Below are positions 3,942 to 23,684 of a stretch of 64,000 bases of DNA, piece after piece (position 1 is the first letter of the stretch; each line of letters opens with the position of its first letter). The DNA is from Glaciozyma antarctica PI12 (Eukaryota; Basidiomycota; Microbotryomycetes; Kriegeriales; Camptobasidiaceae). The translations under genes were made by a program, and so were the position numbers. The stretch lies in assembly GCA_002917775.1 (NCBI GenBank), contig KZ627152.1, forward strand, positions 186,001-250,000. The letters are read 5' to 3'. The notes below the pieces were generated by a model. The model made no database searches. It had not been told where the DNA came from and worked only from the letters and a program-made list of their open reading frames with translations.

Positions 3942-6357
3942 CTAAATGGGGTGGAAGAGAGCGCACTGCGAGTACATGCACCTATTGAGACGAAGAGAGT
4001 CAGCGAAAGTTCTAGCGACGAAGAAGAAGCCGTACTTGGTACCGTGCTCCGCCTGCCAGCGGCATTTGCCGTTCTTGCGAAGCTCCTGCGATAGCCAAGT
4101 CAGCTCGTGTCGATTGAGTACTCGTGGAGCAAAGTTCGAACCTTGCACGGCGACTTTCCAACGTCCTGCTTGAGGCGAGTGAGCTGCGCACTCGTGAGGT
4201 CGTCTGCAGAGATGACGGAGGGTGAGCAAAATAGCGCGAAGAGCCGAACGAGGCTACGCACAGTTATGAGAACGCTCGCAAGCTCGCTGGGTGCAGCCCG
4301 TTGGGCTCACGTAGTGAAAGACGCAGATCTGAAAGCGACCAGGCATCAGCGAGGTTCCGACGAGTCGATTCGTAAGGACTCGACCTGCGGATCTGCGGCG
4401 ACGACGACGGGGAACCGTCAGACTGCACTCGATTCGCTCTCCGAACTGCTGACAAGGGAACGCACCTTGGTTCAAGAACCCCTGCGCCGGTTCGTTAGCT
4501 CTACTTTGTATCCCTGAAAGAGAAAGCGACGCACTCGGTTGGTGTTGATCTTGAGCGACGCCTTCTTGTTCTTCGACGACACCGACTTCCAGTTCCCGTC
4601 CTTGGAAGGCTCGCGCCACGATCCCTTGCCAGAGATCATAGTCGCGTTCTCCACGGCCGGAGAACCATACTCGCTCGTCGAGTACGAGTCGTACCCGCCG
4701 TAATCTCCATTCGCGCCATCGTCGTCCCCGCCCACTGGCCAGCCCCAATCCCCTCCGAGTCCGCTGTTGGCGGAGAATAAGCGAGAGAAGACGGCGACGC
4801 GCCAGCCGAAGCGCGCCAGCTCGGCGCGGTCGCTCTCGCTCTCGCGATGGTTGACGGCGACAATCTTGCCAGCCATGCGTCGCCCGAGGACGGTCTCCTC
4901 GTTGCCGCCGAGATCGGGAAGGAGGTTGATGATGGAGGTAGCTGGCGAGCGACGTCGAGATCAGTACGTTCCGCTGCCGAGCGAGAGAAAGCGGAATTCG
5001 TACGATGGAGTCCAACCAGGTAGAGCCTCTTGAGCCTGCGGAATGCGCGACGTGAGTTTGCAGGCTAAGCAATAAAACTTCCGTGAACGTACCTTCCGAT
5101 TGGGCCGAGCAGGTTAATCAAGGACGCGCACTTCGCTTCGGCTGGAGCGTTGCCTGGAAAGCGTGAATGATTAGACTTGATCCGAGGAAAGAGGCGAGGT
5201 TCGCGTGGGAGGGGAGAAGGCGAGGAGACTCACCGATGTCGATCATGTAGCACAGCGAAGAACTGTTGAACGCGAGCGCGAAAGCATCCCAGGTAGCGCC
5301 GCTGCTCAAAACATCCGTCAGAACTGCAAGCTCGGTACCGAGGGAGAAAAGACGCACCTCGAAATGACTTGTGCTTTCAAAAGCGAGGGGACCAAGGCTG
5401 CTTTATTGTAGTAAACGAAGCAAAGAACTTCGATCGTGTCGCTGGATACCTCTTCGAGATCGAACTCGACGTCGAAAGCTGCGGACGGGCCAGTCAGCCA
5501 TCTATCGCTCGACGCTCGACCGCGAGTCTCTCGCGCGTGAAAGATGAAGATCCCATCCTCCAGGCACCAGAGATACGCATCGAGCTTCACCATTCCCCCC
5601 AGAGAGAGCAGGAGACGCACCCCTCAGGTCCTTCTCGATTTCCCACCTGCCGCACGCGTCAGCTCCCTTCCATCCCTCCTCCCTCTTGTCCGCGACTCAC
5701 CTCACTTGCGCAGCAGCCTGCTCTCCACCACTCCTCCCCTGTTGAAGGAGTCCATCGGAGAACGGCGCCGAACTCCCGTCGATGAGGACGACGATGAACG
5801 CCGGCGAATCCGAAGAGGTCTTGCGGTTCGAGCGGCCGAGCTTCGTGTTCGCGAGGTTGCTCTGCGTAGCTTGAGGACGAGCGGACTCGCGGCGGGTCTG
5901 CTCGAGTTCCTGGGTGTGTTTCTGCGGGTGGCGACGCGTAAGCTTCTCCTTCCAACCCCGTCGGAGCCTCTCCCCCTCGCTCACCTCCTTGAGACTCTTC
6001 AGACTCTTCAGTCGAGATGCAGCGTGTACTCTCTGAAAGGCCGCAAAGGTCAGCATCAGCCTCCGGGAAGCGCCAGGCAGGCGGACTGGAGGGAGTGGAG
6101 CTGCGCCTGCGCGACGGCCGCGTCCGAGTCGCTCGTGGTGCTGGCGGGAGGCGGAGGGCGAGAGGCGGAATCCGTGGCTTCGAGTAAAGCGGCGCGAAGC
6201 GAGGCTTTCTCTTGGAGAAGCCCTGATACGTATTCGTCCTGCGGGAAGCACCAGGTTCAGCGGAGCCCGCTCAGACGACCCCGCTCCTGCTGAGCCTGCG
6301 TACCTGGGCTTCGATAAGAACCCCCCACTGGGCAGCGTCCTCTTCGACGGAGGTCAT
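3942..6357 (-). CDS. NYN/PIN-like (DUF7923-type) plus tandem CCCH zinc-finger protein, paralog A
   Basis: On the minus strand the product starts MTSVEEDAAQWGVLIEAQ at 6357 and ends at a TAG at 3942-3944. After a helical N-terminus comes FIVVLIDGSSAPFSDGLL followed by GGEQAAAQ, the first strand and helix of the fungal DUF7923 domain (family name from memory). Further blocks are IEVLCFVYYNKAAL, WDAFALAFNSSSLCYMIDIG and KRLYLVGLHPTSIINLLPDLG, then a Gly/Tyr-rich linker. The C-terminus carries CCCH fingers: CVFHYVSPTGC with C-x3-H, and a second Cys/His cluster (PCKELRKNGKCRW, CMYSQCALFH). At least nine short introns are needed. It lies head-to-tail with paralog B. The likely role is RNA binding or processing, by inference. 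Intron borders in the 5300-5640 part are uncertain. Confidence 0.7.
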
Positions 6358-8994
6358 TGATACGTGAGTCGAGCTGGGTGAGTGGAGGAAGGAGGCAGGC
6401 GAAGACCCTCTGCGCGCGCGATCTCCATCGGTTCGAGGCCAAAGCTCTCGCAGCAAATCGAGTTCTGCTCGCTTTTCCGCTTATGAATACGGCGTGAATC
6501 TGTGCGTCTACTTAGAGTAGCGGTGGCAAGCGTTCTTAAGAACGAACGCGAAAAAAAGGTGCACGAAAAGCTGCAACAAATCGTCGAAACAACAACCCCC
6601 AGCCTACTTCTCCCGCTGTTCCTCTCCTTCCTATCTTTACAATCTTCCTCCATACGACCGTCCCACTCTCCGTATGGTTCCTCTCCGTAATCGTCGTGCT
6701 CGTCTTCCCCTCCTCCGTCCTCCCAGCCCCAGCGTTCCTGCTCGCTGCCGAGCGAGACTTCCTCTTGCTCAGTCTTTCGAGGCGAGAGAGGGTACGACTC
6801 CGGCTCCGTACTCGGTGGTTTCCCAATAACCCCTTTCGACGACGAAGTGGAGAATTTGACCGGTCGAGAGGTGGGAGGGGGATTGGGGGTAGAGGCGACT
6901 GCGACGGAGCGAAGGGCCGGCGGCGAGGGGGAGGTTGCTGCTTTGGGCGTCGAGATGTGTACGGAAGTTTCTGAATTGTAGGCGTCGTGGGCGTTTTTGA
7001 GAGGGAGAGGGTTTGGAGGCTTCGAGGGCGAGGGGCCTGCCGCCGAGGGAGGGGAAGTGTCGAGGGGGATTGCGACGGGGAGTACATCCGTCGGCGGAGG
7101 TGTTCGAGGGCGTTTAGAGCCGATGGCCTCGAATTGCGAATCGAGTCTCGTATCCTGCGACAAGACGGGCTCCTTCGTCCGATCCTCCGCGCCAACAATG
7201 AGCTTCCCAGGCGACCGAGTTCCAGTGTGCGGTGGCCGATTCGGCTCCGCTGGCGAAGAAACCACTCGCGGGGATGTCGTTTTGAGAACGCGTGGCGAGA
7301 ATCGGCTGGATTTGACGGGCTGCTGCTTGCTGTGATCGGGAGATTGACGAAGAGGGGATAGGAGAGGTGTTCGCATGTCTCTGGGGAGATGCGAGGCGTC
7401 CTGCCGTTTCTTCCAACGCCCACCCACCCTCTCGCTCGTCGTCGAGGTCGAAGTTTTCCGGTGACCTCGTCGCAGGGTGCGAAAAGAAGCACTCGTCCCC
7501 CAGCGGGCAGTTTAACCCGCTGCTGACGCGAGGGCAAGGCGTCCGAGCGACTTCTTCGGCGAGGTGTTCGAGGACGTCGAGAGGAATGGAGTAGGCGTGG
7601 CTGAAGGGACAGTCCTCGAGAGGGCAGCGATCGGTCGCCAGGTACTGAGCGAGGCAGATGGGCGGGTCCTGAGCGTGGAGTGGCTGGAAGAACGCGTCAG
7701 CATTCGAAGAGCGAAAGACGTGTAAGGAGAGGAGGACTCACAAGAGAGAAATCGATAGACTGGTAGCCATAGTAGCTTGCACCGCGTCGAAACGGAACCT
7801 TGCGAATCAAGCCGTCGAGATTCAGCGACTTGGGGCCGGTCCTGCGCACCTCCCACGACAGCCACGCGTCCGCAAAGGGCTCGACAAAGAGGATCTTGGA
7901 GGGGATCGTAGGGTGACCTTTCCCTTTCTCGACCTTTCCTTGAGGAGCCGGGGCGACCATCTCTGCAAAATCTCGGTCGTCGAGGCAGGATCGAGAGAGG
8001 AGGAGACGACGGCATTGCAGAAGGCGAGCGAGGAATGTCGAGAGGGCTGCAAAGAGCGTTAGTGAGGATCGCGGGCAAGCGAAAGTCACTTACCTCGTTG
8101 CCGTTGGAGAGAAACGTCGGGGGGCGAGCTGGTCTCGACGATGAAGTAGAGGGGCTGCAGGGCGTAAGGGATGGCTTCAAAGCAGTAAGCAGTTATCTCA
8201 CATGCGATAGATTAAACGAGACGATCTGGTGCGTAAAAAATCAGAGAGGTTGGCGTCCACTCGAGGAATGTACCTACGAAGGCGTCTAACTCTTCGGCAC
8301 TCTCCACGATGCCTTCGCACATGAGGTCGTCCAAGATTGCCGCCTTGTTCGTCCTGTCGAATCGCAGGTGAGAGATTGATTGGGATTGGACTGAGAACAC
8401 ACCCACAGGAAGATGAATACGAGCAGCAAGCTTTGTTCGAGGCCAGGCTCCATCGTCGCTCGAATGCGGTTGCGTAGTTCCCGCGCTGCGTCTCGTCCGT
8501 CTCCTCGATGAAAGAGAGCAGGAGTGAACATATCGTGCTCAAAGTCCAAGACTGCAGCGGCGAACGGACGGCTGTTCTGCGATCGAGAGCAAGTCAGCTT
8601 CGCTTCTCAGCGAGACGATGGTGAAGGGACGACGCACCTTCTCTGCGAGCAGCACACTGATCTCTTTCTTGAGCACCAACAGCTCATTCGCGTCGTCCTT
8701 ACGCCCGCTCCTCCACATCCGCAGGTCGGTAGTGAGCTCCTCGACCTTCTCCTTCAGGGCCTCGAGGAAGGTCAGCTCCCCCTCAGGGCCAGAATCCCTG
8801 CTCCAACTCACTTTGTTCTCCGCAAGAAGCTTGTCAAGCAAACTCTGAGACTCCTTCGAGTGGTCCTCCTTGAGTTTCCTCCACTCCTTCTGGACGTCTG
8901 CATCGTTCGCCTTCTTCTCCTGCGGTAGAGGCGGCTTGGCGAAGTCGAGAACGAAGCTCAGAGGAAATGAGGTTGTGGCTTCTGCCGTAGACAT
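6354..8994 (-). CDS. Coiled-coil, NYN/PIN-like and tandem CCCH zinc-finger protein, paralog B
   Basis: The start is MSTAEATTSFPLSF at 8994. Residues 30-100 form a charged coiled coil that needs removal of a 58-60 nt intron near 8754-8812. The DUF7923-like blocks are RPFAAAVLDFEHDMF, GDGRDAARELRNRI, LLVFIFLNRTNKAAILDDL and FEAIPYALQPLYFIVE. Two clear CCCH fingers follow: CLAQYLATDRCPLEDCPFSH (C-x9-C-x4-C-x3-H) and CPRVSSGLNCPLGDECFFSH (C-x8-C-x5-C-x3-H). A long Ser/Pro-rich tail (KRPRTPPPTD, SYPLSPRKTEQEE) ends in a Gly/Asp/Glu block. If no last intron exists, the frame runs to a TGA at 6354-6356 that overlaps paralog A's ATG; an alternative last exon would stop near 6536. Probably an RNA-binding regulator; catalytic activity is unknown. 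Confidence 0.7.
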
Positions 8995-9251
8995 CGCGGT
9001 GAGAAGGATAGGGACGGTTGGGGCGTGGGAGGAAGAAGAGAGGAGACCGCGGACTTTCTCCACCAGGAAGGTCCCGCGAACGGAACTTTCCAGGGCGTCT
9101 GGAAGAGCGTGTTGCGTTTTATACACTTTAGGTTGGAATGCAGGGACGAAGCTCCAATAAACAGCTGAAGACGAAACTCCGCGGCGCCCGCGAGTCTCCA
9201 AGGTTCCGCACCCCCCAGCGCTCTCCTTGTTCTCCTTCCATTCAATTCATC
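8995..9251. promoter_or_regulatory. Shared upstream region of divergent CCCH paralogs B and C
   Basis: These 257 bp separate the two start codons of head-to-head paralogs, so both promoters and 5' leaders must lie here. I see pyrimidine-rich leader-like sequence just before 9252 and no clear TATA box. Joint control of the two genes is inference from position only. Confidence 0.4.
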
Positions 9252-10677
9252 ATGCAGTTTGATCAGCTCTCTTCGAACGGAGATTCAGCTCCAGGTTCGC
9301 CCTCGTTTAGCCCGCAGGAGAAGTGGAAGAGCCTGTCAGGCGACGTCGACAAGTTCGTCTCGGGCTTGCTCGCCTCTTCCTGCAACATCGCGGGCAACGA
9401 GACGAACGGGGCTGGGAGGGGCTTTGTGGTGGTTATCGTGCAAGGCGTAGTGGGGCAGGTATGTGTAGGCAGAGAGACGGTGGGGTGGGGGAAGCTGACA
9501 GGCGACGCAGTTCAACAGCGTCTTCTGCAACGCTGGGGAGACTGGCGGAGCAAACGCGGCGAGAGCACTCCGTACGACGATCGACAGAAACCTGGACGGT
9601 ATCGTAACAGAGGACCACGTCACTTTGATCTACATCGTGGCGTACGGAGTCCGTGGCCTTCTTTCGAGCTTGAGCTGACCCGTTCTCTCCGCAGGAACAA
9701 GAGCGTTCTCTCGGAGCAGAAGATAGATCACGTCGACAGCTTTCTCTGCGGCTTCAACGAGGCTGAACCTCTCGCCTCCTGCCTGTTCGTCGAATCTGCT
9801 CGCGCGGCATGGACCAAAGCGAAAGGCGAGTCCCTCTCCTTGCAGTCCGTCGCCTCCGCCTGATGCTTGATTTATCCCAGCTCTCATCGAGCTTCACGGC
9901 GCCAACCCTCTCTGCCTCGCCATCGTCCTCGATACGACCGCGCGAATGCTCGCCGACGAGCTCCCGGCCACCGTTCTCGACAAGGTCTACTGGTTCGATG
10001 TCACCGAGATTCCGGCGTTCCCCAGCAACGAGGAATCGACGACAGCCCCTCGTTCGACCTATTTTCACTCGAAAGCTTCGCAGAAGGTCGAAGGCGGTCG
10101 CACGATCAACCCCGACATTGTCAGCGCATTCCTTCTCCCTCCCACACCTATCCTAACGTTTACGCTTGTGATTCAGCCGATTTATAAGCAGGAGCCTCGC
10201 ATCTGCCACAACGAGCTGTTCCTCCCAACCGGATGTCCGCACGGCGACCAGTGCCACTTCGCGCACGATTGTGAGCCTCCTCATTCGCTTTGCATCGCAA
10301 GCGAGACTGACGATGTTCCTCCCAGACGTCTTGACGGGTCCTCAGCTTTCCGAGCTGAGGGCAGGAGTCCAACGCCTTCCCTGCGAAAGCGCGAGGGTGC
10401 GGTCCATTTCGCGCGATCCTCTCCACTTTGCTGACCGGACTGAGAACCGCAGGAAGGCGCCGAGGGAGTCTGCACCATGGGAACCAACTGCCTTTACGGT
10501 ACGCATTTCTTTGGCTTCGACGGAGTTGAGCTGACGATGATCTCAGGCCACGTCTGTCCCTTCGACGAGCGCTGCACGTTGGCGAAGTGTCGCTTTGGAC
10601 CTCAAGCTCATCCTGGCAAGCTCGCGCGCGGGAGCAAGAGCGCTTTGAATTCGGAGAGCTGGATGAAGAAGCAGTGA
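9252..10677 (+). CDS. NYN/PIN-like (DUF7923-type) plus tandem CCCH zinc-finger protein, paralog C
   Basis: ATG 9252 opens a protein of about 352 residues in eight exons. The domain starts at residue ~58 with FVVVIVQGVVGQ, then GGANAARALRTTI, TLIYIVAYG, FLCGFNEAEPLASCLFV and NPLCLAIVLDTTARM. It aligns block by block with paralogs A and B. A CCCH finger CHNELFLPTGCPHGDQCHFAH (C-x9-C-x5-C-x3-H) lies at about residues 248-268, and a second Cys/His cluster (CTMGTNCLYG, CPFDERCTLAKC, FGPQAHPG) at about 300-335. One intron (9829-9882) appears to use a GC donor (gcgagt); the protein only stays in frame with it removed. It is divergent from paralog B across a 257-bp shared upstream region. RNA binding is the inferred role. 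Confidence 0.8.
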
Positions 10678-10802
10678 GGGGGACCGGAGGGATCGAGGTC
10701 GCAGGATTGAGCTTGAGTGTGAGGGGTGGAACACGATTTTGATTCGATCGGGCCACGCCAGCGCGAGAGGAGAAGCGAGAGACTGGTGAATAGGTTATTG
10801 CT

Positions 10803-12221
10803 TTAATCGGTCCCGACCACCGCTCTCACGTCCCGCATCGTCTGCTGAGCCACCTCCCTCGCCTTCCTCGCGCCATCCAACTCCCTCTCCTTCAAGTACC
10901 CATGCTCCTTCCTGATCCGTCCATACTCCTCCCTAAATATAATCAACGCTCCCTCCACAACCCCCGCGCAACTCTCCTTCAAATCCCGAATCCCACGCTC
11001 GCCAGCGAACCGCGCGGCGATGGTTTCGACGTCCTCGCCAGAGTACCCCGAGTAGATCTCGAGAAGCCCAGCGACTCCAGGACGGTTGACGGGATCCCAA
11101 GTGACGCCTGGGATGGAGTCGGTGAGGGCCGTCTTAATCTTGCTGTGGATCTCGTCGGGTGTGTCTGTGATTTTGATTTTGGACGAGGCGTGCGGTGCGG
11201 ATTTTGACATCTTTTGAGTGGGGGAGCGGAGGGATTGAATTCGAGGGTGGGTGGCTACGGAAACGTTAGCTAAAGGAAGGTACGAGGCGCACTGAGCATG
11301 AACTGAGCATGACTTCGGGAATGCGGAAGACGCCCTTGCCCTTCCCCTTGCCTCCCTTCTTCGCGCCAGGGTAGCTGCGGTTGAAGGACTGGGCAAGATC
11401 GCGCGCGAGCTCGAGATGTTGAGACTGGTCGTGCCCTACGGGAACGTGTGTGGATCTGAGAAGGTCAGGGAGGGCGCTTCGAAGCGGAGAGGAAGCAGCG
11501 CACTTGTAGAGCAGCACGTCGGCAGCTTGCAGAACGGGATACGCGAGGAGTCCGAGCTGGAGAAGCGAGTCGTCCACCTCGTCCTCCGAGTTGGCGTTCC
11601 GCAGGTTCGCCAGCTTCGACTGCAGGCACACACCGCATCAGCTCCCTCGCTCCCGACACCTTCCGCGCAAGCTCACCTTCCAGCTCGTCATCCGCATCAA
11701 CCGGTTGACAGGCGTGACGCAGTTCAAGTACCAAGCCAGCTCAGCATGCTCTGGCACCTGGTCCTGGTGGAAGATCACAGCTCCTCCCGCCTTGTCGTCC
11801 AGTCCCAGCGCGAGCAGCACAGCAAACATGTCCCTCCGCTCCTCCCGCAGCCGTACCGGTTCCTGTGCCAAAGTCAGATGTGGACCTAACGCGTAGGAGA
11901 GAGCTGGAAAGCTTGCCTGCGGGACGGTGAGAGCGTGCAGCCCCACCACCGAGAAGAAGAGCGCATCGCGGGATTCGGCGGGTTGGAGCGCGACCTCGCG
12001 AACAAGGGTCTGCCACTGCGATAGAGCGCCGAGGTGGTTGCCAATCTGTGCAACGGAGGCTTCCGTGAGCTGGTTGGCAGGCAGGGAGGCGTGAGATCGC
12101 GTACGTGAGGGACTCCAGTAGGTTGGATGCCGGAGAAGATCACGCGAGGTTTACCCGCGACCTGAGCTGCTGTTGAGTAGGATGAGCTCAGGCGGCGCAG
12201 GCTGGTGCTTGCGGACGACAT
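10803..12221 (-). CDS. MSW1: Mitochondrial tryptophan--tRNA ligase
   Basis: The enzyme charges tRNA-Trp for organellar translation. The start ATG at 12221 gives [19 protein letters not shown], an Arg/Ser-rich presequence without acidic residues that suggests mitochondrial import. Bacterial-type TrpRS landmarks follow: [16 protein letters not shown] then GNHLGAL (class I HIGH region), [76 protein letters not shown], and a KMSKS loop reading [14 protein letters not shown]. The C-terminus has the family's [12 protein letters not shown] and [11 protein letters not shown]. The intron after VPQ has a GC donor (gcaagc), required to join VPQ to [10 protein letters not shown]. It is divergent from the DHX35-like gene. 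The gene symbol follows yeast by homology. Confidence 0.9.
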
Positions 12222-12489
12222 CCTCGCGCTGGTAGAGTCGGTGGGGTGAGCGGGAGAGAGCAAGCAACCTGGCGCCGCAACAAGTGCTTTCTCCCTTCCA
12301 CCACCTCCTCGCCCGCCAACTTCTCTCTAAACTATCGCAGGAACACCTGGAACGAATCCGCCCTGCCCAAGGGAACTCGGACGAGCAAGCTCACCGGAGA
12401 ACTCGCCGAGAACGCAGCTCCTCCTCGACTGGACCTCTGGACCTCGCACCTCAACACCCCAGCGTCAGCCGACTTCGCACTAGCACAGC

Positions 12490-15442
12490 ATGGCCTTCTG
12501 GAGACCTGGCACCGTCGCACCTGGATCGTCCATCGACCGAGACGCCGAAGCGAGCAGCATTGGAGGTGCTGGCAGCGTTGGTGCGGTTACAGGGCGAGTG
12601 CAAGGGAACGTAGCGGTATCGGATCGCAGGTCGCGACTACCAATCGCAAAGCAGCGTGAGCTACGTCGCACTGAGGCTTGAGACTAGGGCTGATCTCCTG
12701 AGGCGTCTCCAGGTGACCCCTTGCTCTACCTCCTCGAACAACATCCGGTCGTCATCCTGCAGAGCCCGACTGGAACGGGCAAGTCCACGCAGCTACCGCA
12801 ATTTTTTCTGGAGGCGGGATGGGCGTCGGACGGGAGGACGATTGGGATCACACAGCCACGAAGGTGAGCGGAGTTAGGGAGACACCGGCGAAGAGGGAGC
12901 TGATCGCGTTCCTGTGCCAGGGTTGCGGCTATTTCAGTTGCTCAGCGTGTAGCGGAGGAGGTTGGGTGTATTCTGGGAGAGGAGGTGCGTACCCTGCGAG
13001 GTGTGATGAGGTTGGGAAGCTGATCGCGTTTCCTCGCACAGGTGGGCTACCACATCCGATTCGAGGTTGGTCCTACTCGTGCAAGGTCGAGGGAGAGCAG
13101 CAGCTGATGAGCATGACCTGCAGTCCCTCTCAACGCCGGAAACCAAGATCTTATACCTCACCGACGGAATGCTCTTTCGCGAGATCCTGGTCGACCCCCT
13201 CCTTTCTCGGTACGCCCTCCGTTGCCCTCGCGAAGAGCTGGAAGGCTGAGACGGTCTACCTCTCTAGGTACTCCGTCATCATGGTCGACGAAGCTCATGA
13301 GCGAAGCATCTACACCGACTTGTTGCTGGGAGTTCTCAAAAAGTGCGTTGCGATCTCTGAGTGTTCGCAAACGATCCTCATTCGCTCTCGCAGAATCCGA
13401 CGAGTCCGGCCTGAACTCCGAATCATCATCTCCTCCGCCACCATCGACGCCCAATCTTTCGTCGACTTCTTCAACACTCAGCCTCCCACTTCCGCCGTCG
13501 CTTCCTCCGGAATCACCGCTGCCGACGAACTACTTCCTCCGCCCGCAAAGAAGTCTCGCTGGGACAAGCAGGAGAAGGTGCCGAAGAGCGAAGCGATTAT
13601 GGTGAGGCTGGAGGGGAGGGTATACCCGGTCGAGATCGCGTATTTGGAGGAGCCGACAGCGGACGTCGTGCTGAAAGTTGTCGAGACGGTGTTCGATATT
13701 CATCTTCAGGTACGCTGGCGCGACAACCATGGAAAAGAACCTTGCTGATCATGACATAGCAGCAACCACCCGGCGACATTCTGGTCTTTTTGACGGGGCG
13801 GGAGGAGATTGATCGCTGCTTGCAGCAAATATCCGACAACATGTCTCGGTGCGTGCCTCTCCTCCCTGATATCGAGTTCAGCTCACACTTCTTTCCAGAC
13901 TACCACACGGAGCGCCGGAACTCCTGTCGCTGGCGCTACATTCGGGACTGTCGACCGAGCTGCAGATGGCCGTCTTCGACCCTCCTCCCCCGCGCACTCG
14001 CAAGGTCATTATCAGCACAAACGTCGCCGAAGCTTCCGTCACCATCGAAGGGATCAAGTACGTCGTCGACTCAGGCCTTGTCAAGGTGCGTCTTCCTCTC
14101 CCTATCGTTCTCGCTCTCTCTAACCCACACGATTTGCAGCTTCGCTCCTTCAACCCTCTCACCGGCATGGACGCCCTCGTCACCACTCCCTGCTCTCACG
14201 CCTCTCTCGCCCAACGCGCCGGTCGCGCCGGCCGCACCTCCCCCGGCAAATGCTTCCGCCTCTTCCCACCCTCCGTCCTCCCGAAACTCCTTCCAACGAC
14301 TCCGCCAGAACTCGCACGGTCGGACCTGTCGCTCCTTGTCCTCCAGCTCAAGTCGTTGGGGATTCAGAACGTCCTTCGGTTCGATTGGATGACGGCGCCG
14401 AGTGCGGCGATGCTGGAGCGCGCGCTGGAGTTCTTGTATTGCCTTGGTGCGCTGGATGATGAGGGGAAGTTGACGAAGCCGCTGGGGGTGCGGATGGCGG
14501 AGATGCCTGTGGACCCGATGATGGCTAAGATCGTGCGTGCCTTCTCGCTCCTTGCTTTGCGGGATCCAATGCTGACGCTTCCTTCAGCTCCTCGATTCGG
14601 CGAACTACCAGTGCTCGGATGAGATCCTTACGATTGCGGCGATGACTTCGGTTCAGGTACGTCGTCGCTGCTGCCTCGTTCGCCGACCTCGCTCACCCGT
14701 CGCTTTTCAGAACGTCTTCCTCCTCGACGGTGGCGACAGCGTACGGGCTGAACTCGAACGGCGCAAGTTTACAGCAGAGGAGGGGGATCATCTGACTGCA
14801 CTCAACGCCTACAACGCGTTCATCAAGTGTGCGTACCCTTCCGCATCTCTCGCCGCCTCCGCTAACCCTCATCGCAGACGGTCGAAAGTCCTCAAAATGG
14901 TGCCAAACCGTGCGTCCTTTCTCTCCCCCGCCGCTCGTCGCGCTACTCACATCTCGCTCGCAGCACCGACTCAATTTCAAAGCCCTCTCTCGCGCCCTCT
15001 CGATCCGAACCCAGCTTCGCAAGTACCTCCAGCGCTTCGACATCCCGATCATTAGCTGTGGCGAAGACCACTCCAAAGTCCGACGTTGCCTAACCTCGGG
15101 ATACTTTCGCAACGCCGCAAAAGTCATGCCCGATGGGACCTATCGCTCCGTTCGTGAGAACTCCGTACATCCCCCTCTCTCTCCCTCTTTCGCTACGAAT
15201 GCTCAGAGTGCGGTACAGGTCCTTCATGCGCACCCCTCGTCGGTGCTGTTTACTAGGATCCCGACCACCTCGTTCGTCATCTATCACGAAGTCATCGAGA
15301 CGACTAAGAGGTTCATGCGAGATATCACGAGTATCGAACAGGATTGGTTACCCGAGTTGGCGTGAGTTGGCGTTCCTCTGTATGGTGCGCGGGAGCTGAT
15401 GAGATGAGCAGGCCTCATTATTATGCGTTCGGAGAGAAGTAG
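12490..15442 (+). CDS. DHX35: DEAH-box RNA helicase, DHX35 type
   Basis: The protein opens MAFWRPGTVAPGSSIDRD, which matches the FWRPGTEGPG start of DHX35. Helicase motifs in order: SPTGTGKSTQLPQF (motif I), TQPRRVAA (Ia), VDEAHERS (II, DEAH), SSATIDA (III), VFLTGREEID (IV), STNVAEASVTIEG (V) and QRAGRAGRTSPGKCFRLF (VI). Winged-helix, ratchet and OB-fold regions follow (LKSLGIQNVLRFDWM, GDHLTALNAYNAF, LFTRIPTTSFVIYHEV), ending PHYYAFGEK. About fourteen short introns interrupt it. Human DHX35 is found with late-stage spliceosomes; a splicing or RNP-remodelling role is carried over from the family. Motif I has S before the PTG where many DEAH proteins have G or E. Confidence 0.9.
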
Positions 15443-15618
15443 GATGTCATTCCGCATGCGATGTTGTTCAAGCTGTTCGCACTGGCGCTGCTCTCTCTTC
15501 GCTGCGAACCGAGGTACTGAACAAAAGACTGATGCGAAGTTACAGGACCAAGAGGCTAAAAAGGGGGGGATGATATTGTATGGTGGGAGAATGCACGCAA
15601 GAACGGGGAGGGAGGGCA

Positions 15619-16609
15619 CTATCGACGAGCTCGAATGGAGGGAGGTCCCGTGTGCTGCTCGTCATTGAAAGCGCATCCGCTCCTCCCGCACGTCGATCCC
15701 CTCGGGCACGAGTGTCCGTAGCAGCACGTCTGGAGAGGAACGGAGTCAGAAACTCGGCACGGAGCGAGAAGGGGAAGGAACGCACGGGGTCGGTGCAGGC
15801 GGCGCCGTTTTTGAGGGCGTTGCAGAGGTGGAAACGAGCGCCACGACGCATCTCGTCGACGTTGTCGGACGTGAGTTGGTAGAGGTGAGAAAACTGAGGG
15901 TGGAAGGAGGGGTGAGTGGCGGTTCTGAGGATCGGCAGCGAAGTGCGAACCTTGCACTTGGGGACGCTGCAGCGACCGATGAGGTAGAAGGCGTTGCAGG
16001 GAGGGGGGGATTGCTTGCTGCAGGTGGGGCAGGGAAAGCGTTAGCTCGCCATCGAGCGAGAAGGGATCGGAAGAAGGGACGCACGACATGGATTTGGAGG
16101 GGTCGATTTGAGGGATCGCAGAGGACGCAGGCTTGACGATGCGCCATTCAGGGCCTTCAGAAGAGCTCGAGTTGCTGCTCGCTCGTCGAGGAGTGACGTC
16201 GGGACGAGGTGCGGTCGAAGGGGAAGTCGGCTTGCGAAGAGATTCCGAAGATCAGCTCCCGTTCCACCGACACCACTGCTTGCCGAGAAAAGCAGCTCAC
16301 CTTGATCTCCTGTACCACTACAACCTTTTCCCGCCTAGCTTCCTCCCTCCCCCGACTCGCCTCGAGGCTCTCAAGCAGACCCGCCAGTCGCGCGACCTCC
16401 GTCTCGAGCGTCTCGCACCTCACGCGCCAAGCGCTGAGGAACAGCTTGCTCTCCTTGTTCTCGTGAATGAGTCGACGAACGAGCTCGTCGCTGCCCTTCT
16501 GGATCGAGGTGAACTCCTCGTAGTCCGTGTCGTGGTGGATCGACGAGGGGGAGGTCGAGGTGGAGGATCTGGATTTGGAGGAGCCGGAGGAGGCGATTGA
16601 AGATGGCAT
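15619..16609 (-). CDS. Coiled-coil plus tandem CCCH zinc-finger protein, short paralog D
   Basis: About 246 residues on the minus strand. MPSSIASSGSSKSRSS is followed by a strongly helical, charged segment (residues ~30-100, ELVRRLIHENKESKLF) predicted to be a coiled coil, then a Ser/Pro linker. The C-terminus has CNAFYLIGRCSVPKCKFSH (C-x8-C-x4-C-x3-H) and a second cluster CNALKNGAACTD, CCYGHSCPRGSTC, CGRSGCAF. These align with the zinc-finger ends of paralogs A and C, including the spacer with RGARFHLC, but the NYN-like DUF7923 domain is absent. It therefore looks like a family member that lost, or never had, the central domain. RNA binding is inferred. Confidence 0.7.
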
Positions 16610-17069: not shown

Positions 17070-19020
17070 TCAAGCGTCCACCCCCTCCAACGCCAACTGC
17101 TCCGCCACCCTCGCCGCAACCCATTCCTCCCTCCCCTCCTCCGGATCCGGCGCTAAACTGCTCGTCGTAAAATCACGCGAATGACGCGAGGTGGGAGCTG
17201 CTCGCTTTCGCATGGTTGATGACGAGGTGGGCGCACGCCAGACGCTTCGACTCCGAGTTTCCGTGGTGGTGAGGCGCGCGGTGGAGGTCGTGAGGGGCTT
17301 GGTGGTGGTAGTGGCACGAGTGGTTGTAGAAAGAGGCTTGGTGGTGGTGGTGGTGACGCGAGTTGTAGAGGAGAGGGGCCTGGTGGTGGTGGAAATGCGA
17401 GAGGTGGTGCTGAGCGGCCTCGTCGTGGTGGAAGAGGAGGTCATAAGGGGCCTTGTCGTGGTGGTAGCAGCCTTCGTTGCAGTCGAGACGCGAACGGTTA
17501 CGGCCGAGCTGGATCTGCGACGTCCTCGAGTCAGTGAGGAAGATCCTCGAGCGAGCAGCGAGTAACGTACCTGCTGACGGTAGTAGAGACTCTGCTGGTC
17601 GTCGAAGTGGTGTTGGCAAGAGCAGGCTCGACTGCGATATAAATGCTCAGCCAAAATTTTCGCACGGTCAAAGAAAAGCGACGCACAGATATCATTCTGC
17701 GCTCCATCCAGGAAGCCCCAGTTACGATGGTACCCCGGTCGGTCCTCGTTCCCCTTCCAAACGACGTTCGAGGGAGAGTTGTAAGCGTAGAGAGGTCGCT
17801 TGGCGCCCTTGGTCGGGAAGCAAGTGGTGCTGCCCTTGGGGCACCAGCCGGGGTTGACGGGAGCTGAGATGGGGCGGGCGTTGGCGGGGGAGTTGGTGAC
17901 GTTGCAGTCAAATCCGGTCTGTCAGCTTGTTAGCTTGTTAGGGAGAGCGGAGGAGAGGAGAGATTGACGAGCGACGGACCATGTACTGGGAAGGGACGAA
18001 GTTTAGCGGGAGAAGGAGATTATAGAGTATCCGAGGCAACGTACAAAGTTTCCAGTTCCAGTATTGGCGAGCCAGAACCAGGCGCAGATGCACTTGGAGC
18101 CAGTACATTTCGGCATCGCAGCGGGAACCTGAGGGAGAAGGAGAGAGTCAGCGAGGTGCACGTCGATTCGAGAGGTCCGCGAGGTTCGCAGGCGCTCAGA
18201 GCGGAATGTGAACGTACATCGAAGGTGGTAACTCGGGTTCGCACGCACTTGGACTGAACAGAGAAGATGGCGAGGTTGTCCCAAGTGACCTTCGCAAGCG
18301 GCGTCAGTCCATCACCTCGGCGACGGAAGCTGAAAACCGAGCGCACCTTCTCGATAGAATCAACATTGGCGATACCGAGAGCGCATCCAGAGACGAGCGA
18401 CTCGTCGATAGAGCCGTTGGGGTCGCCAGCGTGGTAGGCTCCGACGTTTCCGGGGCACGCATCGAGATAGCTCCCTTCTTGAGTCGTGCGCCATCCGAGC
18501 GAGGTCCAGGCGACGTGGCAGCTAAGCGATTGGGGTCAGATTAGCGAACGTCGGTGAGCGAGAAGCGAAAGTGCGTACGCGATCTCGATAGTGAACTTGC
18601 CGCCGGCAACGAGAGTGCTCACTGCACCTGAAGCGGGCTTCAATGCACGCCACGCCGGTCCTCTGCGCGAGAGTCAAAGTCAGCTTTGAAACGAAGAAGG
18701 AGGCAAAGGCTGGGACGAACCGGAACCACCAGTCGTTCTGGTTCGCGATGTCGGGACCGATGGGTCCGACAGGGTCTCCGGCGGTGTAGTCCCAGTTGGG
18801 ACCGACGCCATACATGCTCTTACTCCAGATCTGCGAGGAAGGAAGGGTCAGGGACAGGGACCGAGGCGAGAGGATGAAGTGGAGGTGAGCGCAGCGAGCT
18901 GCTTCGCCATCTCGGAAGCTGGGAGATGTGTCGATGGAAGGAAAAGCGGGAACTTACCGACTGGTGAGCATGGGCGGCAGGGAGAACTGCCGCGAGAACG
19001 ACAAAGGGAAGGAGCTTCAT
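17070..19020 (-). CDS. Secreted AA14-type lytic polysaccharide monooxygenase-like protein, copy 1
   Basis: MKLLPFVVLAAVLPAAHA is a clean signal peptide; cleavage would expose His1, as copper-dependent LPMOs require. The mature part contains SMYGVGPNWDY, NDWWFRGP, FTIEIACHVAWTSLGW (a candidate second copper His), YLDACPGN, VSGCALGIANVDSIEKVTWDN, CTGSKCICAWFWLAN and NFYMTGFDC. This order resembles fungal AA14/Cel1-like LPMOs. A Thr-rich linker follows, encoded by imperfect repeats (TTTRPLST type), then a short conserved tail (DPEEGREEWVAARV). Nine or so introns. The likely role is oxidative attack on a wall or plant polysaccharide; substrate unknown. The AA14 assignment is from motif memory, not a search. 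Confidence 0.7.
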
Positions 19021-21832: not shown

Positions 21833-23684
21833 ATGTCCGCGCCACCGACGCCTCCCACGGCACCCTCAGCAGAAGCGGTAGTCCCCACCCCCCCCACCGC
21901 AGCCGGCCACGTCGCTCCTTCCGTCTCCAAGCTTTCTCCTCCTCCCAAGCCGTCCTCTCCGTTCGTCTACCTCGGTATCCCCCAATGGCTCCTCGACTAC
22001 CGCCCCAAAGTCCCTTCGCGCAACATGTCCATCTTCCTCTCGGTGACGATCGGGATCACGGGAGCGTACCTCTATGATCGGAGGGAGTGCGAGAGGCTGC
22101 AGAAGGAGTATTTGGACAAGGTGCGGTGGATGAGCGAGGCGCCGCTCGCGACGGGGGAGATGGCGAGGAGGGTCAAGGTGTATGGTGCTAGGGTTCCTGA
22201 GGACGGAGAGCTCGAGAGGAGCTCCAAGTGGTTCAAGAGATATATGCGGGTGCGTGTTCTGCGCTTTCGAGAGGGGAGGAACACAGCTAACGGTGCTATC
22301 CTTGCAGCCTCTCCTCGTTGCATCGGGCACCGACTACGCTCTCGTCACTGGGACGAACCCCGGTGGGCTGGGACGTACCGTCCTCTCCGAGATCCGCGCT
22401 CGCCGCATCGCAAACGCCAGCAAGGACCCAGCCATTATCGCCGTGTCGGCGTACAACTCGGACAGCGTCAACGTCGCCACCGTCCTCGAGGAGCGAGATG
22501 CGGCGTACGAGGCGAATGAGCTCGACGGCGGGATCGTGATGCTCGGACGCGGGGCGTTGAAGGAATATCTGTGGGCGCTGCGGAAGGGGTACGGAGAGGA
22601 GATTGACCTGAGGGAGGAGGCGCGGCTGGAGGGCATGGGGTTGGGAAGTGGGGAGAAGCGGAAGGATGGGCGGTGGGAGCGAGAGGAGGAAATCATGGTG
22701 CGGGAGCTGGATCGCGAGGACGCGAAGAGCGACAGCGCGCCTTTCGACGTGCCTGAGCCGGTTGGACTCGAGGGACTGGACTCGAGCGACCCGACGTCAA
22801 CACCGGAGGAGGCGCCCGTACCGCTTTCGACCGCCTACGCACCGTATCGCGCACTTCCGATCCTTCCTTCGACACCCCCTCCTCCCCCTCCCCCCGCCGC
22901 CGACGAGAAGCCCCTTATCCTCCCCGCCGTCACCCAAATCCCTCCTCAACCTCCTCTTCTCCTCGTCCCCTTCTCCCACCCTTTCGGCATCCGTCAATGG
23001 CCCGCCAAGCTCCTCCACTTTTTCAACCACCGCTCGGACGTCAAGCTCGGAGCCGAGTGCGCCCTCAGCATCATCGCCGCCCAAACCCGCCCCTTCGACT
23101 CTCCCGTCCTTCGTACCGAATCTGGCGAGCTCCAAGGCCTACTGGACGAGAAGGTCGTCGAGGAGGTTCGGTTGGGACAGCACAAGGACCTCGGAATGGA
23201 CGAGAGCCTGCGAACTGGATCGCAGGACCTCGACTTCCTCGCCGACTCGGACGACCTTCCTTCCCACTTCCGCAAATCGTACCGCACCCTTCCTTCGGCG
23301 CACGAGTACGCTCGGCGAACGTACTACACCACCGACCTCCCGCCGCGATTGGCGCAGGCGCGCGAGCTGGCGAACGGGCGGACACCGACGAAGGCGGAGG
23401 GGAAGTACCCTCCCAAGATCGAGAGTGAGCTGCGGAAGGAGCGGTTGGAGAAGGAGCTCAAGTGGCGTCGGGAGCTCGAAGGGTGGGCGGTCCAGCGGAG
23501 TGGGAGTGGTGTGGCGTGGGAGGAACGGTGGGGGAGCGGACAGGGGAGCGAGAACCCGTTCAAGGTGTTTGTGCCCGTCGGGGAGCGGGACCTCGCCGAG
23601 CTCGAGGCGGCGAAGAGGAGCTGGGAGGAGCTGCAGAGTCAGAAGCAGCTCGCGGTGGAGGAGATTCAGGCGCAGGGAGAGTAG
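21833..23684 (+). CDS. TIM54: Mitochondrial inner-membrane translocase subunit Tim54
   Basis: Two exons (21833-22249 and 22308-23684) encode about 597 residues. The Pro/Ala-rich start is followed by the Tim54 signature GIPQWLLDYRPKVPSRNMSIF, which leads into the single N-terminal membrane helix (SIFLSVTIGITGAYLY), then a charged CERLQKEYLDKVRWMSEAPL segment. Exon 2 opens PLLVASGTDYALVTGT. The large acidic domain faces the intermembrane space. Yeast Tim54 belongs to the TIM22 complex that inserts carrier proteins and stabilises Tim22; that role is taken from the family. It is longer than yeast Tim54 (478 residues), mainly through low-complexity Pro runs near 22850-22900. Confidence 0.9.

Follow-up and report, generated by a model that had tools for sequence, protein, structure and literature searches.

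Background

Proteins in which a nuclease-type middle domain precedes a CCCH RNA-binding end are exemplified by the Regnase / ZC3H12 RNases. In Regnase-1, as set out in a portion of PMC12982082, a PIN-like domain is followed by CCCH and metal is bound by four aspartates, D141, D225, D226 and D244. Another point of reference is Ssd1, of the fungal RNase II family, where the active site was mutated on at least four occasions and the RNA-binding parts were kept, according to a section of PMC8097288. The genes analysed here were found in the window, i.e. the whole 64,000-nucleotide stretch of Glaciozyma antarctica PI12 DNA under study, and all positions refer to it. They are loosely clustered new additions to a known, as yet undescribed family, that of Pfam DUF7923, zf-CCCH_tandem and zf-CCCH_12 (PF25540, PF25543 and PF25542). 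Three of them (A, B and C) score above the DUF7923 cut-off and two (C and D) above that of zf-CCCH_tandem. In the library searched, no literature naming DUF7923 or PF25540 was found.

The four proteins nevertheless depart from their family. Against DUF7923, A, B and C score 45-73 bits and a consensus-like sequence 270.6. Of the 18 cells for conserved acids in A, B and C, 14 are changed, and D has no DUF7923 at all. Unlike the complete zf-CCCH_tandem module, A and B lack its end. With the Regnase / ZC3H12 RNases, as far as these are described in the cited part of PMC12982082, they share the order of a middle domain followed by a CCCH RNA-binding end, and the DUF7923 consensus shows an acid pattern. 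They differ in that no homology is detectable between the middle domains, in that the acids of A-C are largely changed, and in carrying two fingers per protein. The likeness to Ssd1 and other fungal RNase II pseudonucleases, within the cited section of PMC8097288, lies in a nuclease-type domain without its acids standing beside RNA-binding modules. The families are unrelated, and ancestral activity is established there, not here. The Ssd1 case documents loss of active-site acids with retention of RNA-binding modules as a route taken in fungi; the parallel concerns the manner of working and not membership of a family.

Gene models and organisation of the locus

Four paralogous CCCH genes, named A to D, were modelled between positions 3942 (the stop of A) and 16609 (the ATG of D) by splicing by hand and checking by script. 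Gene A (3942..6357, minus strand) has 16 exons and encodes 476 residues, a model supported by splicing, Pfam and the coding frame; its product is composed of an N-terminus that looks helical by eye, DUF7923, a Gly/Asp-rich linker and two CCCH fingers. Gene B (6508..8994 as modelled, minus strand) has 9 exons and about 660 credible residues, with an unsure 3' end at which the stop is not fixed. Its layout comprises a helical-looking N-terminus (by eye), DUF7923, two CCCH fingers and a long tail, Pro/Ser-rich and then acidic. Gene C (9252..10677, plus strand; 8 exons, 349 residues) encodes a short N-terminus, DUF7923 and a tandem CCCH end, and gene D (15619..16609, minus strand; 5 exons, 246 residues) an N-terminus again helical by eye and a tandem CCCH end, without DUF7923. 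The models of C and D rest on splicing and Pfam. The tail of B after the fingers (6508-7423) comprises about 270 residues and is absent in A, C and D. Downstream of B, gene A starts on the same strand, approximately 150 bases beyond the end modelled for B.

The spliced frames are open in all four genes, which contain 4 to 15 introns each. The modelled introns measure 43-142 bases and have GT-AG ends, with the single exception of a GC-AG intron in C (9826-9880; donor AAAG/GCGAGT, phase 1). In the alignment its column coincides with that of a GT-AG intron of B. When codon usage was scored over the whole coding sequences, the modelled frame was the best of the three in every gene. Exon by exon, it was the best in 29 of the 32 exons long enough to be scored (at least 45 bases; the models comprise 38 exons in total), the failing ones being 5985-6030 in A, 10326-10396 in C and 15619-15729 in D. 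In the long last exon of B the modelled frame was weakly better (0.08 bits per codon versus -0.11 and -0.07).

Genes A, B and C adjoin one another and D lies about 4.9 kb from C, beyond two unrelated genes; the adjacency given in the preliminary description does not strictly hold for D. The intervening genes were recognised by their Pfam matches: a class-I tRNA synthetase of the W/Y kind (10803-12147, minus strand) and a DEAH-type helicase (HA2_N and Helicase_C, 13870-14619, plus strand). The helicase region as a whole spans 12717-14619 on the plus strand, and its open reading frame at 12717-13745 gave no Pfam match. Genes B and C are divergent, head to head, their start codons being separated by a gap of 257 bases (8995..9251). 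This gap may be a shared promoter, in which case B and C may be co-regulated.

Domain content

DUF7923 (PF25540, cut-off 24.5 bits) was detected by Pfam in A (E 3.9e-20, 72.9 bits), in B (E 1e-11, 45.4 bits) and in C (E 8.4e-13, 48.9 bits), and was not listed for D at an E-value limit of 10. The domain covers residues 123-276 of A (4895..5807, minus strand), 103-243 of B (7955..8576, minus strand) and 57-173 of C (9420..9930, plus strand), spanning introns in each gene. The architecture anticipated for A, B and C, DUF7923 with tandem CCCH fingers, and the lack of the middle domain in D were therefore both recovered. Two sequence blocks of the preliminary description, given as FIFLNRTNK and YIVAYGNKS, were reread as FIFLTNKAA and YIVANKS in our models, which use slightly different splice sites.

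A pattern search of the models, whose splice sites around the fingers had been chosen by eye with the CCCH pattern in mind, found that every one of the four proteins has two complete CCCH patterns, in agreement with the initial identification of the locus as four CCCH zinc-finger genes. In A the fingers follow the spacing C-x9-C-x4-C-x3-H twice (residues 406-474; 3951..4325, minus strand, spanning introns). In B they are contained in one exon (residues 324-383; 7477..7656, minus strand), and zf-CCCH models match there below cut-off. The fingers of C (residues 246-308; 10204..10551, plus strand) and of D (residues 159-216; 15712..15998, minus strand) span introns, and zf-CCCH_tandem (PF25543, cut-off 24) matches them with 26.1 and 30.8 bits, respectively. 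The latter model was not listed by Pfam for A or B despite their two CCCH patterns each. Models of a single CCCH finger match B, C and D, all below cut-off, and no finger model of any kind was listed by Pfam for A. In an alignment of the ends, C and D have a last Cys-rich stretch that A and B lack.

Paralogy and divergence

All six pairs of proteins were linked by BLASTP, with best E-values, calculated for a one-subject search space, of 4e-9 (A-B), 1e-11 (A-C), 6e-4 (A-D), 2e-11 (B-C), 7e-7 (B-D) and 3e-12 (C-D). These values place the relationship of the four genes beyond chance. Consistently with the description of the genes as old and strongly diverged paralogs, identity to A is low (23% for B, 26% for C and 18% for D). 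The low identity indicates either that the duplications are old or that the genes evolve fast.

Intron positions were compared in one alignment (A1). Just before the fingers, a phase-0 intron falls in one column for all of A, B and C. Genes B and C have in common a phase-1 intron in the DUF7923 region and also each have a phase-2 intron, offset by one column; a phase-1 intron between the fingers is common to A and C. None of the introns of D matches another gene exactly. The shared introns suggest that A, B and C arose by duplication of a gene that already bore introns. For D, the simplest reading of the sequences is that DUF7923 was lost rather than originally absent. The 64-kb window yielded no fifth copy.

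Conserved acids in the DUF7923 family model

The PF25540 model was read out indirectly, by changing residues of a typed consensus and measuring the resulting loss of Pfam score in bits. Alanine was the replacement residue, except at two alanines, which became serine, and three variants carried several changes at once. The consensus, which is the source of the acid positions and of their numbering, was typed by hand and checked by its Pfam score alone; its match covers positions 3-185 of 185 and scores 270.6 bits, which makes it a fair stand-in for a typical DUF7923 member. As a reference, 30 positions were drawn at random from the 87 residues common to two typed consensus sequences, leaving out the positions already measured, the alanines and the ends.

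Changing the candidate acids cost 5.9 bits at D10, 4.4 at D101, 3.4 at D12, 3.3 at E107, 3.1 at D136, 2.5 at D110 and 0.1 at D111, compared with a median of 1.5 bits at the random positions. D10 and D101 were each costlier than 29 of the 30 random positions. From these costs it follows that the DUF7923 family at large conserves several acids. They appear to be conserved as they might be in a metal-dependent PIN-like enzyme, with a presumed match to the acids of such enzymes, and we take this as a lead rather than as proof of the fold.

Comparison of DUF7923 with NYN and PIN domains

The preliminary description had proposed an NYN/PIN nuclease fold for the middle domain, a proposal that found no support in Pfam, in solved structures or in profile comparison. 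No PIN or NYN family was listed by Pfam for A, B, C or the DUF7923 consensus at an E-value limit of 10, a search in which the HMMER filters drop most matches above 0.1. Among solved structures, a profile of A, B and C had no match, and the consensus and a five-sequence profile had weak and unrelated ones (best E 0.35 and 0.17, respectively). Using hhalign, DUF7923 was related to a small set of bacterial NYN proteins with a probability of at most 0.5%, a comparison made with shallow profiles (Neff about 2.5) that a remote link could escape. In the controls, NYN proteins were linked to each other at 96.7-98.5%, and the A-B-C profile was linked to the DUF7923 consensus pair at 98.5%.

Retention of the acids in A, B and C

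Using four alignments, we traced six candidate acids (D10, D12, D101, E107, D110 and D136) through A, B and C, which makes 18 cells. Assignments at positions 110 and 136 are uncertain, since they lie in the C-terminal half of DUF7923, where the alignment is poor. The identical acid was found in 4 of the 18 cells in each alignment, the other 14 being changed: A has D10 and D101, B has D10 and D136, and C has none. Counting either Asp or Glu, three of the four alignments gave 3 acids in A, 5 in B and 0 in C, and the fourth gave 4, 5 and 1, so that B has an acid at five of the six positions whichever alignment is used.

These counts were set against the 9 random positions costing at least 2.5 bits, at which 6-7 of 27 cells are identical. 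Similar residues (BLOSUM62 above 0) occupy 8 of the 18 acid cells in three alignments and 10 in the fourth, versus 11-12 of the 27 random cells; for B alone the figures are 5 of 6 acids versus 4 of 9 random conserved positions. Across A, B and C, the candidate acids are thus neither specially kept nor specially lost. Two stronger statements were considered and rejected: a contrast between a kept scaffold (26 of 30 cells) and lost acids (4 of 18), because the scaffold positions had been chosen for being shared by A, B and C, and a preferential loss of acids, given the 6-7 of 27 identical cells at random conserved positions. At the level of single genes, C and D are unlikely to be enzymes, since C has one acid or none and D has no DUF7923. 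A is probably non-catalytic. B may still hold a metal site, as it has an acid at five of the six positions.

Possible functions of the cluster

The reading that we tentatively prefer, at slightly under an even chance, is that A, B, C and D are RNA-binding adaptors graded by the loss of a possible catalytic site. The four genes would descend from one fungal DUF7923-CCCH gene through old local duplications. In their products, the two CCCH fingers would bind short single-stranded RNA motifs, and protein chains would be paired through the N-terminal region, which looks helical by eye in A, B and D. The DUF7923 module may have begun as a metal-dependent PIN-like nuclease and would now be mainly a binding or docking module, at least partly non-catalytic, with weak or absent catalysis. 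The gradation would run from B, with an acid at five of six positions, through A with 3 (4 in one of the four alignments) and C with 0 (1 in one), to D without the domain. The domain matches over cut-off, the BLASTP links, the shared introns, the complete finger patterns, the identical acids in only 4 of 18 cells and the Ssd1 parallel speak for this reading; against it count the acids, which are not preferentially lost, and B, which may still hold a metal site.

Two alternatives depend on what DUF7923 is. It may be a different alpha/beta domain, not PIN, for instance a ligand- or protein-binding fold, the CCCH proteins then being ordinary RNA regulators. We regard this as doubtful: hhalign probabilities to NYN of at most 0.5%, against 96.7-98.5% among the NYN controls, and the failure to find a solved-structure match at E below 0.1 speak for it, but profiles with an Neff of about 2.5 can miss remote homology and the pattern of acids in the family fits a metal site. 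Conversely, DUF7923 could be a PIN/NYN-like endonuclease still active in at least one copy, most likely B, which would make these proteins fungal analogues of Regnase, a PIN-like RNase with CCCH. The strong constraint of the Pfam model at D10, D101, D12, E107 and D136 relative to the random median of 1.5, the Asp or Glu at five of six positions of B in all four alignments, and the four Asp and the PIN-like-then-CCCH order of Regnase-1 (in the part of PMC12982082 cited) all fit such an activity. The missing sequence or profile link to NYN/PIN, the identical acids in only 4 of 18 cells and the lack of any acid in C in three of four alignments count against it, and we consider it unlikely.

The same gradation can be given a bolder form, which we judge quite improbable, in which Regnase has its fungal counterpart in the DUF7923-CCCH proteins and the array is caught in graded decay from an RNA-cutting enzyme to non-cutting RNA binders, with the acids nearly intact in B, half kept in A and gone in C, and the domain absent from D. 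Were it true, a fast-changing array of this kind could act against invading RNA. Decay might also be of a plainer sort, some copies being pseudogenes or nearly so and the divergence reflecting relaxed constraint. Such an origin would account for the low identity between the paralogs, the acids lost in A and C, the lack of DUF7923 in D and that of the last Cys-rich stretch in A and B, but it is very improbable in view of the open spliced frames with 4-15 introns each, the in-frame codon bias of all four genes and the complete CCCH patterns of all four proteins. Neighbouring copies in different states (with an acid at 5, 3 and 0 of six candidate positions under three of the four alignments, and one copy lacking the domain) offer material in which gene removals could ask what the middle domain does and whether DUF7923 was ever a nuclease.

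Search for relatives and neighbouring genes

Relatives were sought with few and short patterns, which would miss many of them, in collections without a fungal genome set. Patterns derived from another alignment (A2) matched 53 stretches of viral contigs and 27 of genome contigs, none of which was confirmed. A typed consensus pair (A3) matched 110 stretches of genome contigs and 144 of viral contigs, again with none confirmed. Two motif scans of the viral contigs retrieved 8 and 29 stretches; tblastn of A, B, C and D gave no match there at E 1, and the best hmmsearch E-value was 1.7. PF25540 was detected in 0 of 14 control genomes, the 8 identified ones being prokaryotes.

Outside the cluster, two further genes were recognised in the window. 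Next to D, the region 17073-17921 (minus strand) matches the lytic polysaccharide monooxygenase family AA14 (PF22810, E 2.7e-10), and the region 22134-23681 (plus strand) matches the mitochondrial import subunit Tim54 (PF11711, E 1.5e-15).
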